A DNA stretch of 64,000 nt from Lachnospiraceae bacterium (GTDB lineage: Bacteria; Bacillota; Clostridia; Lachnospirales; Lachnospiraceae): contig JAHAYJ010000006.1 in NCBI GenBank assembly GCA_018384375.1, positions 1-64,000 on the forward strand, given 5' to 3'. The notes beneath the pieces were generated by a model. That model searched no databases. It worked only from the letters and a program-made list of their open reading frames with translations, and was not told the DNA's origin. Positions 27,851 to 37,542 of the stretch are shown here, one piece after another; position 1 is the first letter of the stretch, and every line of letters begins with the position of its first letter. The position numbers and the translations under genes were made by a program.

Positions 27851-29251
27851 ATGTATGAAAATAATTATCCAAATAATAATTATCATTATGAAACAGGAGG
27901 CAGCACAAGTGGTTCCTATCAGCCTCAGGGAGGACCGGGGAAGCCCGAAAAGGGAAATCATAAGGGTTTCGGTTTCTTTAAAAAGATTGTTGTGGGAATC
28001 TGCTGTGGCTTGTGCTTCGGTATTTTTGCAGGCTTGGGATTTCAGGCGGTCAATACAGCAGGTGAGCTGCTGAAGAATACAGCCCGGAAGCAGATTCAGG
28101 CAACCGACGAGGCAGAAGAGGAGCAGGTTACGGAAAAGGCTGAGAATGCAGAGGTGGCTGCAACCGAGGAGCCTGCAATTGCTACAACAGGGCAGACGGA
28201 CACTACCGGGCAGGTTATTCAGACTAATCTATTGAATGTAAGTGATGTTGTGAAAGAGGTCATGCCGGCGGTTGTTTCCGTGAATAATAAATATGTGGAA
28301 AAGATGACCTTTTTCGGGCAGTCCTACAGCAGCGAGGCAAACAGCTGTGGCTCCGGCATTATTGTAGGACAGAATGACTCAGAGCTGCTTCTGGTCTCCA
28401 ACCATCATGTGGTAGCATCCGCTGAGGAGCTTACGGTTCAATTTATTGATGGCTCTCAGGTACAGGCACAGATAAAGGGCACAGATGAAGAGAAGGATCT
28501 GGCTGTCATCGCAGTGCAGCTTTCCGATATCAGCGATGAGACAAAGGAGCAGATTGCTGTAGCAAAATTGGGAGATTCCAACGCCCTTACGGTAGGTGAG
28601 CCGGTTATTGCAATCGGTAATGCGCTGGGCTATGGTCAGTCTGTAACAACCGGTGTTGTCAGTGCACTCAACAGACCCATCGGAACGGCACAGGAAGTTA
28701 GTGCGCAGGAGAAGGAAGACGCAGAGATCAATACCTTTATTCAGACAGATGCTGCGATCAATCCCGGTAACTCCGGCGGTGCGTTGCTTAACATCAAGGG
28801 TGAAGTGATCGGAATCAATTCCAACAAGATCGGAGGATCTACCGTAGAGGGTATGGGCTATGCAATCCCGATCTCAGACGCTGAACCGATCATTGAAAAT
28901 CTGATGACAAAAGAGACCAGATTGAAGGTAGATACTGAGGATAGAGGTTACCTGGGAATTACAGGAGTCGATGTGGTGGCTGAATATTCTGAAATTTACG
29001 GTATGCCTCAGGGCGTGTATGTTTCTTCCGTGATGGATGGAACAGGAGCTTCCAAGGCAGGACTCGTAAAGGGCGATATCATTACAGCGATTAACGGAGA
29101 AGAAGTGGATTCCATGTCAAAGCTGAAGGAGGAACTGTGTTATTATTCTGCAGGAACGACAGTGGAACTGACGATCATGCAGGGAAGTCCTATCGGTTAT
29201 CAGGAAAAGAGTGTGAGTGTAACGCTGGGAGCACAGAGTAATACACAGTAA
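27851..29251 (+). CDS. Membrane-anchored HtrA/DegP-like serine protease with PDZ domain
   Basis: A 466-residue protein. A Gly/Asn/Tyr-rich cytoplasmic start is followed by one membrane helix (about 42-64), a low-complexity linker and a trypsin-like domain with the full triad: His in VSNHHVV (about 185), Asp in EEKDLAVI (about 217) and Ser in NPGNSGGAL (about 309). A PDZ domain covers about 365-460 (GVYVSSVMDGTGASKAGL, GDIITAINGEEV). It is a surface protein-quality-control enzyme. The ATG at 27851 follows AAGAGGTAATTGTC. A PrcB-like lipoprotein gene follows in the same direction, probably as a partner. Confidence 0.94.
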   Translation: MYENNYPNNNYHYETGGSTSGSYQPQGGPGKPEKGNHKGFGFFKKIVVGICCGLCFGIFAGLGFQAVNTAGELLKNTARKQIQATDEAEEEQVTEKAENAEVAATEEPAIATTGQTDTTGQVIQTNLLNVSDVVKEVMPAVVSVNNKYVEKMTFFGQSYSSEANSCGSGIIVGQNDSELLLVSNHHVVASAEELTVQFIDGSQVQAQIKGTDEEKDLAVIAVQLSDISDETKEQIAVAKLGDSNALTVGEPVIAIGNALGYGQSVTTGVVSALNRPIGTAQEVSAQEKEDAEINTFIQTDAAINPGNSGGALLNIKGEVIGINSNKIGGSTVEGMGYAIPISDAEPIIENLMTKETRLKVDTEDRGYLGITGVDVVAEYSEIYGMPQGVYVSSVMDGTGASKAGLVKGDIITAINGEEVDSMSKLKEELCYYSAGTTVELTIMQGSPIGYQEKSVSVTLGAQSNTQ

Positions 29252-29303
29252 CAGGCATTCTTTTGAGGGCAAAGTCATAGATTATTAGAAAGAACGGTAA
29301 TCG

Positions 29304-29753
29304 ATGGGTGGCCCGATGAAAAAAAATATGCAGGAACTGATCCGATACGGAATTTTGGCAACAGGATTTTTAGTGCTGTGCCTGCTGGCGGGATGCGGCA
29401 GGCACAGAGATCCCATGGAAAAAATAAAGGATTTGGAATTTACGGTACTGGCGGAGGAAAACATTCCGGAGGAATTAAGGACAGTTATAGAGGAAAAAAA
29501 GAGCTCTGCTTTTAAAGTGACCTATCAGGATAATGGTTTTTTATATATTTGCGTGGGATATGGACAGCAGGTAAGCGGGGGCTACAGTATTACAGTCAAT
29601 GCCCTGTACCTTACGGATAATGCAATCTATGCAGATACAACGCTCCTGGGACCGGATCCGGCAGATCCGGCTACAGAAAAGAAGAAAGCTCCTTCCTGCC
29701 CTTATATTGTTTTAAAGACAGAGTTCATAGATAAGCCGGTAGTGTTTGAATAG
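29304..29753 (+). CDS. PrcB-like lipoprotein
   Basis: About 145-149 residues. A signal peptide ends in the lipobox LLAGC, so the mature protein is lipid-anchored outside the cell. The C-terminal half (VGYGQQVSGGYSITV, then a Cys-Pro-Tyr near the end) resembles the PrcB C-terminal domain first described as part of a spirochaete protease complex. An ATG at 29316 is an alternative start that gives a classic MKKN signal peptide. The location 52 bp after the HtrA-like protease supports a protease-accessory role, though the family match is by eye. Confidence 0.7.
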   Translation: MGGPMKKNMQELIRYGILATGFLVLCLLAGCGRHRDPMEKIKDLEFTVLAEENIPEELRTVIEEKKSSAFKVTYQDNGFLYICVGYGQQVSGGYSITVNALYLTDNAIYADTTLLGPDPADPATEKKKAPSCPYIVLKTEFIDKPVVFE

Positions 29754-33354: not shown

Positions 33355-34140
33355 ATGAACAGGAAGAGAAAAGAACAGGCAAGGGTGCTTTCCCAGAGGA
33401 TGATCGCACCGGATATTTATGATATGTGGCTGGAGACAGAACTGGCGAAGGAGGCAAAGGCCGGGCAATTCATCGGAGTTTATACGAAGGATGCCTCCCG
33501 CCTGCTCCTGAGACCTATCAGTATCTGTGAGACAGACCGTGATAAAAATGCGCTTCGCATCGTATACCGGATCGCCGGAAAGGGAACGGCAGAATTTGCC
33601 ACTTTTGGGGAGGGACAAAGCGTGGAAATCCTCGGCGTCTTGGGAAATGGGTTTCCCGTGGAAGAAAAGAAAGATAAGAGGGTGGTTCTCATGGGAGGCG
33701 GGATCGGGATTCCGCCGATGCTGGAGCTTCTGAAGCAGCTGCGGGAAGCAGGGACGGAGGCAGCAATGATTGCAGGCTATCGTGACCGACAGCTGTTCTT
33801 AAAGGAGGACCTTGAAAAGTACGGTAAGGTCTATATTGCCACGGAAGACGGAAGTGTGGGAACGAAGGGAAATGTACTGGATGTGATGAGACAGGAGGAA
33901 CTGACAGCACAGGTGATCATGGCATGCGGTCCTATGCCCATGCTGCGGGCAATCAAGCATTTTGCCAAAGAAAGGCAGATGGAAGCTTATATTTCCCTGG
34001 AAGAGAGAATGGCATGCGGAGTAGGTGCCTGTCTGGGCTGTGTATGCAAGACAACCCGTAAGGATCATCATTCCCATGTGAACAATACAAGAATCTGTAC
34101 AGATGGACCGGTTTTTGATGCAAGGGAGGTGGATATCTGA
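33355..34140 (+). CDS. pyrK: Dihydroorotate dehydrogenase B, electron-transfer subunit
   Basis: A 261-residue flavin and iron-sulfur protein that passes electrons from the PyrD subunit to NAD. It has the FAD-binding LLLRPISICE, the NAD-binding GGGIGIPPMLELL and a C-terminal [2Fe-2S] cluster site CGVGACLGCVCKT with a fourth cysteine about 15 residues on. The ATG at 33355 follows AAGGAGAGAG. The stop overlaps the pyrD start by one base (TGATG), as usual for coupled subunits. Confidence 0.95.
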   Translation: MNRKRKEQARVLSQRMIAPDIYDMWLETELAKEAKAGQFIGVYTKDASRLLLRPISICETDRDKNALRIVYRIAGKGTAEFATFGEGQSVEILGVLGNGFPVEEKKDKRVVLMGGGIGIPPMLELLKQLREAGTEAAMIAGYRDRQLFLKEDLEKYGKVYIATEDGSVGTKGNVLDVMRQEELTAQVIMACGPMPMLRAIKHFAKERQMEAYISLEERMACGVGACLGCVCKTTRKDHHSHVNNTRICTDGPVFDAREVDI

Positions 34141-35045
34141 TGAACACCAGGGTGACAATTGCAGGTGTGGAATTTAAAAATCCGGTGATGACGGCATCGG
34201 GAACCTTTGGCTCCGGCATGGAATACAGTGAGTTTGTTGACTTAAACAGGCTGGGGGCAGTGGTGACAAAGGGAGTGGCAAATGTGCCATGGCCGGGAAA
34301 CCCGGTTCCCCGTGTGACTGAGACCTACGGCGGTATGCTGAATGCTATCGGTCTTCAGAATCCCGGAATTGACGTATTTATTGAAAGAGATATTCCGTTT
34401 TTGAAGCAGTTTGACACAAGGATCGTGGTTAATGTCTGTGGAAAGAGTGTGGAGGATTATCTGGAGGTTGTGGAAAAACTGGGAGATGCCGATGTGGACA
34501 TGCTTGAGATCAATGTATCCTGTCCAAATGTGAAGGAAGGTGCCATTGCTTTTGGGCAGAAAGCAGATTGTCTGTTTGACATTACTTCCCAAATAAAAAA
34601 GAAGGCAAAGCAGCCGGTAGTCATGAAGCTCAGCCCCAATGTTACGGATATCGCGGAGATGGCAAGAGCAGCTGAGGCGGCGGGAGCAGACGGGATTTCC
34701 CTGATCAATACGCTGACAGGTATGAAAATTGACATTCACAAACGCACCTTTGCCCTTGCCAATCGGACAGGAGGGCTTTCAGGTCCTGCCATTAAGCCTG
34801 TGGCGGTACGCATGGTCTATCAGGCTTCCCATGCGGTTAAGATCCCTGTGATCGGCATGGGGGGAATTGCCAATGCAGAGGATGCTATTGAATTTCTGCT
34901 TGCCGGTGCAAGTGCAGTGGCTGTCGGAGCCATGAACTTTGTCAATCCTTATACTACCGTGGAGATCGTAGAGGGAATTGAACAGTATATGGAGAAATAT
35001 GGAATCAAGGATATCAGTGAACTGATCGGCGGTGTGCGAGAATAA
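34140..35045 (+). CDS. pyrD: Dihydroorotate dehydrogenase B, catalytic subunit
   Basis: A 301-residue FMN barrel oxidising dihydroorotate to orotate. It shows NPVMTASGTFGSG near the start, the active-site cysteine segment EINVSCPNVKEG, PVVMKLSPNVTD, LINTLTGMKI and IPVIGMGGIANAEDA with the FMN-phosphate site AVAVGAMNF. Class 1B is confirmed by the coupled pyrK. The genes pyrF and pyrE, often adjacent, are not in the window. Confidence 0.96.
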   Translation: MNTRVTIAGVEFKNPVMTASGTFGSGMEYSEFVDLNRLGAVVTKGVANVPWPGNPVPRVTETYGGMLNAIGLQNPGIDVFIERDIPFLKQFDTRIVVNVCGKSVEDYLEVVEKLGDADVDMLEINVSCPNVKEGAIAFGQKADCLFDITSQIKKKAKQPVVMKLSPNVTDIAEMARAAEAAGADGISLINTLTGMKIDIHKRTFALANRTGGLSGPAIKPVAVRMVYQASHAVKIPVIGMGGIANAEDAIEFLLAGASAVAVGAMNFVNPYTTVEIVEGIEQYMEKYGIKDISELIGGVRE

Positions 35046-35085
35046 CGGGCGGTGGAACGATCCGACCGGTCTTTTGGATTTACGA

Positions 35086-35112
35086 ATATGTTACCTCCCT
35101 GTGGCATACATT
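35086..35112 (+). promoter_or_regulatory. Candidate sigma-E (mother-cell) promoter of the sipL-like gene
   Basis: ATATG (35086-35090), a 14-bp spacer and CATACATT (35105-35112) resemble the sigma-E consensus (ATATT, 14 bp, CATACAnT). The gene behind it is of a sporulation family, which fits. Transcription would start near 35119. Confidence 0.6.
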
Positions 35113-35137
35113 TACATTAAGTAGACACAGGGAGGTA
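35092..35137 (+). promoter_or_regulatory. Hairpin that would sequester the sipL ribosome site in read-through RNA
   Basis: Perfect 12-bp arms TACCTCCCTGTG (35092-35103) and CACAGGGAGGTA (35126-35137) enclose a 22-nt loop. The right arm contains the GGGAGG ribosome site for the GTG start at 35143; the left arm contains the complementary CCTCCC. The -10 box lies in the loop, so RNA started there lacks the left arm. The structure is seen in sequence; the regulatory effect is inferred. Confidence 0.75.
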
Positions 35138-35142
35138 TTTTT

Positions 35143-36714
35143 GTGGAATTAATCAAACGAAATATACATATGGATTGTCTGAGGTGCAGGGCATCAACCC
35201 AGATGACGCTGGAGGATGATGTTATTATTTCTGATTCCAGACCGGATGCCGCTAAGCTGATTATGGATAGAGGAAATGTAAGTATTGATGAGGTAAAGGT
35301 GACAGATGACCATGTCAATGTAAAGGGGAAGATGCATTTTCACGTTCTCTATCTGGCAGAAAAGGGAAGCGGAACGCAGGATGGGAGCAATGTGGATCAA
35401 ATGCAGGGAAGCCTCCCCTTTGAGGAAATGATCTTTATGGAAGGTGTCAGGGGCGGAGATCCGGTTACGACAGAGTGGGAAATTGAAGATCTCAGCATCA
35501 GTCTGATCAATTCCAGGAAGCTCAGTGTGCAGTCCCTGATCAGCCTGCAGCTTAGCTGTGAGGATATTTGTGACGAGGAGACGGCAGTGGATCTTTACAG
35601 TCAGGAACCGGTCGAATTCAGAAAAAAGCCTCTGGATGTGGCGACTATGGCAGTGCGGAAAAAGGATATTTTCAGAATTAAGGAGGAAATAGAAATTCCG
35701 GGGAGCTTTCCCAATATCCTTTCCATGATCTGGTCGGAAATAGTGCCGGGGGCGGTGGAATTCAAGGTGCTGGAGGATAAAATCACATTGCAGGGAGAAT
35801 TGCGGGCGTTCTTCCTTTACCGAGGAGAGGGGGACGAGGAGGAGATCTGCCATTATGAGACCACATTTCCGTTTGCCGGGAGCCTGGATTGTCCCGGCTG
35901 CAGAGAGGGAATGATTCCGGAGATCCGTTATCGGGCAGAGGATCGTGAGGTGGAGATCCGCCCTGATTTTGACGGAGAGGAGAGAGTAATCACCTTCGAA
36001 CAATGCCTGGATCTTGACATCTGTATTTATGAGGAGGACAGCATTGATATTCTTGCGGATGTATATGGCGTTGTGAAGGAAGTATCTGTCCTTGACAGAA
36101 ATGCACAGTTTAGAAGACTCCTTTCACGCAGCAGCGGCAAGACAAAGCTTTCCGGACATTTTAAGGCACAGGAGGAGAATCTTACTCTTCATAAGATCCT
36201 GCACACGGCAACCAATCTGCAGATCGCAGAGAAAAATATTGTGGAGAACGGAATCGAGATTGTGGGAGCTCTGAACCTTCAGATCTTTTGTGAATGTGGC
36301 AGTGAAGCCGGCAGCTATAGTGTGATCAGAGGAAGCATTCCTTTTCAGTATGTTTTGGAGGCAGAAGGGATAAGCGAAAATTGTATTTTCCCGGTGGGCG
36401 TATTCATAGATCAGATCACACCGGCGATTATTGACGGGGAAGAAGTGGATGTGAAATGCGTTCTGTACTTCCGTTCCAATATTTATGAGAAGTGGCAGGA
36501 AAAAATCGTGGAGGAGATCATTGTGTCCGAACCGGATGCGGAAAAAATGGCATCACTTCCGGGAATTGCAGTCTATATGGTAAAAGCGGGAGACAGCTTA
36601 TGGGATATCGGTAAGCGCTATTATGTGCCGGTATCAGCGATCCGTCAGACCAATAACCTGTCCTCGGATGAAATCAAGGCCGGCGATAAGCTGCTGATTG
36701 TGAAGGGCTGGTAA
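35143..36714 (+). CDS. sipL: SipL-like spore protein with DUF3794 (SPOCS) and LysM domains
   Basis: A 523-residue protein starting at GTG 35143, seven bases after GGGAGG. It contains repeated DUF3794/SPOCS-type segments (for example DDVIISDSRPDAAKLI near residue 25, then regions around 160-270 and 320-460) and a C-terminal LysM (about 476-520, YMVKAGDSLWDIGKRYYVP). C. difficile SipL has the same layout and binds the coat-basement ATPase SpoIVA through its LysM. The sigma-E-like promoter upstream agrees. The ortholog name is a family assignment. Confidence 0.85.
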   Translation: MELIKRNIHMDCLRCRASTQMTLEDDVIISDSRPDAAKLIMDRGNVSIDEVKVTDDHVNVKGKMHFHVLYLAEKGSGTQDGSNVDQMQGSLPFEEMIFMEGVRGGDPVTTEWEIEDLSISLINSRKLSVQSLISLQLSCEDICDEETAVDLYSQEPVEFRKKPLDVATMAVRKKDIFRIKEEIEIPGSFPNILSMIWSEIVPGAVEFKVLEDKITLQGELRAFFLYRGEGDEEEICHYETTFPFAGSLDCPGCREGMIPEIRYRAEDREVEIRPDFDGEERVITFEQCLDLDICIYEEDSIDILADVYGVVKEVSVLDRNAQFRRLLSRSSGKTKLSGHFKAQEENLTLHKILHTATNLQIAEKNIVENGIEIVGALNLQIFCECGSEAGSYSVIRGSIPFQYVLEAEGISENCIFPVGVFIDQITPAIIDGEEVDVKCVLYFRSNIYEKWQEKIVEEIIVSEPDAEKMASLPGIAVYMVKAGDSLWDIGKRYYVPVSAIRQTNNLSSDEIKAGDKLLIVKGW

Positions 36715-36753: not shown

Positions 36754-36794
36754 AGGAGCCTCACACAGATTACTTTGTGTGAGGCTCCTATTTC
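36754..36794. terminator. Bidirectional terminator after sipL
   Basis: AGGAGCCTCACACA (36754-36767) pairs perfectly with TGTGTGAGGCTCCT (36776-36789); the 5' flank is A-rich and the 3' flank is ATTTCT. It separates two convergent genes. Confidence 0.85.
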
Positions 36795-36815: not shown

Positions 36816-37427
36816 TTAGGCTTCCGTCCTGATTCCGGCAGCCTCTGCCATATCATCAAAGCCCTTCATAACGGCATCGTAGGTCTTCTGGGAAATTTCG
36901 GGAAGTTCACCGCCCCAGGTTTTTTCTGCCTGTTTAAAGCCCTTTTCAAATGCGGCACGCATTTCCTCAATCTTATCGGGATCTCCGCCTGTCAATGCTG
37001 TGGCAAAGTCCAAGATACGCTGAGAGGTCTGGGAAACACCCCAGTAACCATCCTCTGCGATATCAGCCTGTGCCTGCGCTTTGGTCGCAGGATCCACAGT
37101 GAAATCACCGCTGGATAAAATGCTCCAGATGTCGTTTGCGTTGTTGTAGGTTTTTCCCTGCCCTAAAAGCAGCTTTTCTACCAGGCTCTTGAACTGTGCG
37201 ACTCTGGCATCTGAATCGGCTTTCAGCTTGGCGATCATGTTGGTATCTGGTGTATATTTTTTGGCAGAAGCAGCCTTGGCTTCTTCCGAAGGTTCATAGA
37301 TTACACCGGTATCAGCAGCCGCGGCCTGGCCTGCTGTTTTTGTTTCATTCTTGACTTCCGTGCTCTTCGATGGTACAGAATAGGTACTGTAAGCATCCGT
37401 TGCACCTGTAACTCCGTTTACGCTCAT
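36816..37427 (-). CDS. Conserved hypothetical protein
   Basis: A 203-residue soluble protein without signal peptide. A Ser/Thr/Ala-rich, probably disordered start (about 1-55) precedes a helical domain with GYWGVSQTSQRILDFATAL and GGDPDKIEEMRAAFEKGF, ending TYDAVMKGFDDMAEAAG. I recognise this as a recurrent conserved domain in many bacteria but cannot name a function. The ATG at 37427 follows GGAGGGTAAACT on the minus strand. It is monocistronic, faces the sipL terminator, and its promoter region is shared with divergent ispE. Confidence 0.75.
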   Translation of the reverse strand: MSVNGVTGATDAYSTYSVPSKSTEVKNETKTAGQAAAADTGVIYEPSEEAKAASAKKYTPDTNMIAKLKADSDARVAQFKSLVEKLLLGQGKTYNNANDIWSILSSGDFTVDPATKAQAQADIAEDGYWGVSQTSQRILDFATALTGGDPDKIEEMRAAFEKGFKQAEKTWGGELPEISQKTYDAVMKGFDDMAEAAGIRTEA

Positions 37428-37513: not shown

Positions 37514-37542
37514 TTGACAATAGATATAGGATTGTATATAAT
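37514..37542 (+). promoter_or_regulatory. Consensus sigma-A promoter of ispE-gntR
   Basis: A perfect TTGACA (37514-37519), a 17-bp spacer and a perfect TATAAT (37537-37542). The start point should be near 37549, leaving a leader of about 48 nt. A promoter this strong usually needs a repressor. Confidence 0.85.

Follow-up and report, generated by a model that had tools for sequence, protein, structure and literature searches.

In phage T4, the long early RNA of gene e hides the ribosome site of this gene, and the RNA made from the late promoter, which lacks the left strand of the hairpin, is translated, with a 100-fold effect (PMC3014915). Such read-through hairpins are described for the T4 genes e, soc, 49 and I-TevI (PMC3014915, PMC2988022), and more of them for the T4 homing endonucleases (PMC2988022). 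For sigG of Bacillus subtilis, a hairpin of more than 20 pairs has been proposed, which blocks RNA reading through from upstream and is unable to form in transcripts of the gene's own promoter (PMC5942855); all these papers are represented here by partial texts. The 58-base-pair (bp) composite described here is located upstream of the sporulation gene sipL, at positions 35086-35143 of a 64,000-nucleotide (nt) stretch (the window) of contig JAHAYJ010000006.1 from a Lachnospiraceae bacterium. It is quite probably an insulated sigma-E promoter, in which read-through RNA would be stopped or masked and RNA started in the loop of a hairpin would make SipL. The basis of this reading is computed and consists of the anatomy of the element, its conservation and covariation, predicted opening energies, an association with the upstream gene and a partial exchange with terminators.

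Like T4 gene e, the sipL element has, on paper, a masked long RNA and a free short RNA. The T4 cases are phage genes with phage late promoters and are described as masking in the partial texts, whereas sipL is a chromosomal sporulation gene with a two-part sigma-E promoter, the spacer of which is the left arm of the hairpin, and with a T-run that gives the structure the shape of a terminator. As a sporulation gene with a read-through hairpin, sigG is similar to sipL, its hairpin being located downstream of spoIIGA-sigE. It differs in gene, lineage and promoter (sigma F/G), its upstream operon is itself a sporulation operon, and the partial text describes no terminator function for its hairpin (PMC5942855). 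With intrinsic terminators, the element shares its position after an operon and a GC-rich stem that leads into a T-run, but its 22-nt loop carries a promoter, its stem is also a ribosome site and its T-run is also the spacer to the start codon. For sipL of Clostridioides difficile, a mapped sigma-E promoter is reported upstream, with ATA stated as the sigma-E -35 motif; compared by description, the two genes share the sigma-E promoter with ATA at -35 and differ in that no hairpin is described in the partial text for C. difficile (PMC3789822). In the open-access literature searched, no description of a sipL-type element was found. The element appears to extend the logic of T4 gene e and sigG, and the spacer used as left arm, the terminator-like T-run, the spread and the context dependence would be new.

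The left arm of the hairpin (TACCTCCCTGTG) pairs perfectly over 12 bp with the right arm (CACAGGGAGGTA), which holds the sipL ribosome site, and the sigma-E-like -10 (CATACATT) lies entirely inside the loop between them (coordinates in Table 1). The ATA of the -35 stands outside the hairpin, precisely 16 nt 5' of the -10, so that the left arm falls within the 16-nt promoter spacer. Five T residues separate the right arm from the GTG start codon. The initial annotation had given the arms, the loop, the -10, the ribosome site in the right arm and the start, and a direct reading of the sequence finds all of them exact to the base; the ATA of the -35 is an addition to them. SipL has 523 residues and carries the SPOCS repeats and LysM domain of its family (PF12673 in three stretches, 4.4e-50; LysM, 2.6e-12). 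The gene follows a pyrC-pyrK-pyrD run, with pyrD last. The region 35086-35145 folds at -24.1 kcal/mol (z = -5.0), an energy equalled by none of 200 dinucleotide shuffles; for the wider stretch 35050-35180, z is -3.0 and two of 200 shuffles equal it. At Rfam gathering thresholds, no match was found in the window.

Start regions of sipL were obtained from the matches in 131 of 200 sampled family genomes (one of these, with a C-terminal piece only, was left out) and in 35 of 37 genomes of the window's genus, together with seven additional loci. The 171 loci correspond to 161 distinct sequences, of which one was too short and 160 were retained; the start of L021 was set by hand. Each region was scored for its best stem with a right arm ending 2-16 nt before the start, and 30 dinucleotide shuffles per locus place the 95% level at 18 and the 99% level at 21.5. 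The window itself scores 31. The stem exceeds the 95% level in 80 of the 160 regions and the 99% level in 63, the lower threshold admitting about 5% false hairpins and missing imperfect ones, with starts picked by rule. Scores of at least 18 are found in 30 of the 32 distinct genus sequences and in 50 of 128 from the remaining genera; Parablautia muri (L032) is a named relative carrying the element. In 69 of the 80 hairpin loci, 4 nt or more of the ribosome site fall within the right arm.

The arm sequences vary among genera, yet they stay mutually complementary. In a swap test, the region was cut at the promoter, and the spacer was scored for pairing both with the downstream part of the same locus and with those of other species. 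A promoter-like match is present in 93 of 129 family rows, and in these the native combinations score 18.65 on average against 13.05 for permuted ones (z 18.8; 0 of 2000 permutations as high). The genus rows (32 of 32) give z 6.5; of the 80 no-hairpin rows, 44 have such a match and give z 1.1. The rows of this test and of the column counts are related and non-independent, and their values are not strict probabilities. In the genus alignment, 26 double-change cells are counted versus 11.4 in shuffles (a count reached in none of 500), six pairs have double changes versus 3.8 (reached in 14 of 500), and the score drops every time the partner is shifted by 1-3 columns. This alignment slips in register at the inner pairs, and the swap test is preferred to the column counts. 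The compensatory changes between the arms, for which the initial annotation had proposed an alignment of relatives, are thus present in both tests. In four loci with sipL behind a ttcA-like gene (L079, L104, L156 and L158), the right arm has a GCAGGT-type sequence in place of GGAGG, as if the element had shifted to a different ribosome-site core with its complementarity retained.

The promoter was scored as ATA, a spacer of 14-17 nt and a -10 of the CATA type, which is the sigma-E consensus. The window reaches 19.2 with a spacer of 16 nt, in agreement with the sigma-E-like promoter that had been annotated in the loop. A score of at least 16 is found in 68 of the 80 hairpin loci versus 3.2% of shuffles, and in 19 of the 80 no-hairpin loci versus 3.8% of shuffles. 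The spacing equals 16 in 77 of the 79 scored hairpin loci, a number to be read with the fact that the score itself favours 16. In 70 of these 79 loci, the -10 begins at most 4 nt into the left arm, and in all 79, at least 5 nt separate it from the right arm. Use of sigma-E and the start point at the nested promoter are putative and deduced from these motifs.

In the long RNA of the window, the predicted cost of opening the ribosome site is 14.9 kcal/mol, compared with 3.2 kcal/mol in RNA starting at the nested promoter. The annotated contrast between a hidden and an exposed ribosome site is therefore reproduced by prediction, and with its promoter inside the hairpin DNA, the element would have the arrangement of a read-through mask, the site being paired in the long RNA and free in the proximal one. 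For the 79 hairpin loci, the predicted medians are 12.2 and 2.5 kcal/mol, and the predicted gap is at least 5 kcal/mol in 65 of them; the 35 scorable loci among the 80 without hairpin give medians of 2.0 and 1.5 kcal/mol.

It is assumed that RNA entering from the upstream vegetative gene would carry both arms. The hairpin would then stop the polymerase in the T-run, right before the start codon, and where the polymerase continues, it would keep the ribosome site paired. In the mother cell, sigma-E RNA would start in the loop without the left arm, so that no termination would occur, the ribosome site would be free and SipL would be made.

The upstream genes of the 160 loci were typed by tblastn versus a few example sequences. 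Hairpins scoring at least 18 are found behind pyrD in 39 of 43 loci (28 of the 43 being from the window's genus), behind veg in 17 of 25, behind a ttcA-like gene in seven of 11, behind murA in one of one and behind other genes in six of 15. The names veg, ttcA and murA, and the status of these genes as vegetative, are presumed from reading their sequences. A prcB-like gene ends less than 30 nt before sipL in 29 of the 160 loci (the copy in the window belongs to PF14343), and only two of these 29 have the hairpin, which is near chance. Outside the genus, 36 of 51 loci behind vegetative genes have it, versus two of 29 close behind prcB (p 2e-8) and versus 10 of 65 with prcB upstream whatever the gap (p 1e-9), both values ignoring kinship. 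The initial annotation had set the element against read-through from pyrD. This setting is common among the carriers, but the element is tied to sipL rather than to the pyr neighbourhood, because it recurs behind veg, ttcA-like genes, murA and prcB. On a tree of 69 SipL proteins, 40 of them selected non-randomly to cover the upstream-gene types, the hairpin state changes at least 17 times; 25 of the 66 inner branches of this tree are well supported.

Upstream of the close prcB genes, a sigma-E-like site scoring at least 17.5 is present in six of 29 loci versus 1.1% of shuffles, and one scoring at least 16 in 13 of 29 versus 9.8%. These sites fit transcription of sipL as part of a sigma-E operon at a portion of these loci. 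In the window, the PrcB-domain gene follows an HtrA-type protease gene (27851-29753).

A second hairpin with a nested promoter is present in the same genome (L176:3938-3989), before the gene of a P-type ATPase of the calcium type (PF00122, PF00689; start at L176:3987). Its relative in B. subtilis is YloB, which we take to be sporulation-linked. This element has the same composition: the left arm forms the spacer between a -35-like ATA and a -10-like CATATAAA, the latter lies in the loop, and the right arm holds the ribosome site. The predicted opening cost is 11.6 kcal/mol for the long RNA versus 1.4 for the nested one. From 38 places in the genus, 30 were taken, and the 27 distinct sequences were the starting point of both the swap test and the counts. 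The hairpin reaches 18 in 21 of 27 and the T-run is found in two of 27; the swap test gives z 7.0 (25 of 27 with a promoter-like match). The column counts are weaker than for sipL, with 10 double-change cells versus 4.8 in shuffles and 12 with the partner slid by one column. They come from an alignment of 22 of the 27 sequences, and the omission of L246, L249, L251, L252 and L253, which did not line up, favours the structure. In other genera, three of seven relatives with at least 55% identity and a located start (L325, L327 and L328) pass with different arm sequences; over all 23 located loci of this search, four pass.

A genome-wide class of such elements was looked for and is not apparent. 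Pattern searches in the window's own genome gave 8, 6 and 12 sites, and the reversed control 6, 7 and 8, without clear excess; by eye, extended complementary arms are seen among these sites only at sipL and the ATPase gene. In a sample of 0.66 Mb, three of 483 gene starts combine a stem of at least 21.5 with a nested promoter of at least 17, one of them AT-rich and doubtful. In the genus pattern search, the sipL and ATPase sites are among the matches listed. Two other structures were noticed in the same genome. At L198:315-362 (the site upstream of L281:16337), an 18-position stem with one mismatch has the ribosome site of a von Willebrand-domain gene in its right arm and a loop without a convincing promoter. 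At L180:15512-15552, a 16-bp inverted repeat, perhaps an operator, precedes a TetR-type regulator gene.

Two explanations take only one half of the proposed action. If the hairpin were simply the terminator of the upstream operon, laid over the sipL promoter to save space, the hiding of the ribosome site would be incidental. The T-run is the main argument for this possibility, which we consider rather unlikely. At least four T are found at the leader end in 68 of 80 hairpin loci versus seven of 80 others, and outside the genus in 40 of 50 versus five of 78 without hairpin. Of 13 independent tree pairs, an average of 10.4 show T-run and hairpin in agreement and 0.3 in disagreement (median p 0.002, at most 0.02). 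The median distance from the upstream stop codon to the left arm is 20 nt (57 hairpin loci), which leaves scant room for another terminator. A partial exchange with conventional terminators points in the same direction. Among loci with a vegetative upstream gene on the same strand and a gap of up to 700 nt, a separate terminator scoring at least 20 is present in five of the 13 that lack the nested hairpin and one of the 64 that have it (uncorrected p 0.0004), as expected, with cautions, if both did the same job. All five are behind veg, where they account for five of the six no-hairpin loci examined; none was found in the seven pyrD and ttcA loci without hairpin. A purely terminating hairpin is difficult to reconcile with the ATPase element, in which the hairpin is retained mostly without a T-run, and with the frequent position of the sipL ribosome site under the right arm. 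The converse, as initially proposed, is that read-through passes and the ribosome site is locked, with no termination. This also seems improbable, to a similar degree. The large predicted difference in opening cost, the ATPase element without T-run, and the T4 and sigG precedents, described as masking in the partial texts, speak for it. The strong association of T-run and hairpin at sipL speaks against it, as does the rarity of such a T-run, found in only seven of 227 gene starts of the own genome. This control covers about 0.33 Mb (the window, 20 stretches and eight short loci around CATACANT sites), and sipL is the only one of its 21 starts reaching 18 that also has at least four consecutive T in the last 10 nt. 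No terminator precedes position 35092 according to scan and fold: the scan lists none there, and the stem at 35046-35084 does not stand out (z -0.55), since 60 of 200 shuffles fold equally well. The idea of insulation with no terminator at all is doubtful, because the T-run accompanies the hairpin and conventional terminators substitute for it in some lineages; the large loop aside, the stem with its five T is terminator-shaped. A stable GC-rich stem of 12 bp is followed by TTTTT, as in intrinsic terminators, but the loop of 22 nt exceeds the 3-8 nt of the simple scan, in whose list the hairpin is absent, and it is therefore named terminator-like. At sipL, we favour both actions, so that the element would combine termination with a translational block. 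At the ATPase gene, masking alone seems to operate, and it is apparently independent there because most of those elements have no T-run.

Readings without an RNA switch fit less well. Inverted repeats near promoters are often operators, but a fixed protein operator, or a cruciform, is disfavoured by arms that change from genus to genus with their complementarity intact, and a stabiliser of the sipL leader would find no hairpin to act through in the predicted sigma-E RNA, which lacks the left arm; together, these are very improbable. Chance complementarity to a purine-rich ribosome site is hardly conceivable. GGAGG and CCTCC are short, 21 of the 227 control genes pass the 95% level and the own-genome pattern searches show no clear excess, but recurrence in 80 of 160 distinct regions and covariation are not expected from chance, which the swap test contradicts. 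Several observations weigh against the insulated sigma-E promoter itself. In 11 of the 80 hairpin loci, the best stem covers less than 4 nt of the ribosome site, and in nine of 79 scored loci, the best -10 is well inside the left arm, outside the loop. Outside the family (76 of 118 class genomes matched; the 29 best loci besides L001 examined), two of 29 reach 18, about the chance level. Eight of 36 loci with prcB at 30 nt or more pass as well, and on the tree, upstream context and hairpin can be compared in four independent pairs only (mean 3.0 agree, 0.1 disagree, median p 0.25). For a terminator, the U-tract of five T is short and the 22-nt loop large. At a terminator score of at least 16, the exchange weakens to five of 13 versus three of 64; eight of the 13 vegetative-gene loci without nested hairpin have no strong separate terminator, and no-hairpin gaps are longer (median 134 versus 76 nt), with more room for one.

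Table 1. Features of the sipL element and its flanking genes in the window.
Feature	Position	Strand	Basis
pyrD, presumed origin of read-through RNA	34140..35045	+	PF01180, TIGR01037
Predicted sigma-E -35, ATA	35086..35088	+	Sequence; 16 nt to -10
Left arm, complementary to the ribosome site, within the promoter spacer	35092..35103	+	Sequence, fold, swap test
Loop, 22 nt, with -10 and predicted transcription start	35104..35125	+	Sequence
Predicted sigma-E -10, CATACATT	35105..35112	+	CATA in all 32 rows of the genus alignment
Predicted transcription start, about 6 nt past -10	35118..35120	+	Usual promoter geometry
Right arm with GGGAGG (35130-35135)	35126..35137	+	Sequence; GGAGG in all rows of the genus alignment
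TTTTT, separates ribosome site from start codon; also U-tract of a terminator-like structure	35138..35142	+	Sequence; T-run counts
sipL, spore coat morphogenetic protein, GTG start	35143..36714	+	PF12673 in three stretches, LysM

Downstream of sipL, a 16-pair hairpin (36754-36789), listed by the scan as terminator-like on both strands, separates the gene from a convergent open reading frame (36816-37427, minus strand). Its product of 203 residues has no Pfam match at E 0.001 in the search of the window proteins. A promoter-like TTGACA-17-TATAAT (37514-37542, 12 of 12 matches) is found immediately 5' of ispE.

The element may well be a portable composite part, in which promoter, terminator and ribosome-site lock are written on shared bases, and the sequence-free spacer of sigma-E promoters encodes the strand opposed to the ribosome site. 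Such a part would be kept when a mother-cell gene closely follows a vegetative operon, swapped for an ordinary terminator as the gap widens and lost when the gene joins a sigma-E operon. How developmental genes are silenced behind housekeeping operons is rarely understood; here, the arrangement is legible from sequence and testable by natural variation, since the sampled genera (129 family rows) place various genes before sipL and the element tends to track this context. If the insulated promoter is real, a device seen in T4 and proposed for a single B. subtilis gene would become a recurring chromosomal design, promoter spacers would gain a use, and a compact insulated promoter would be available for synthetic biology. 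An RNA sequencing signal over sipL in growing cells would then not need to mean that SipL is produced. If the reading as a portable part is true as well, bacteria would have in it a general and predictable means of insulating developmental genes.
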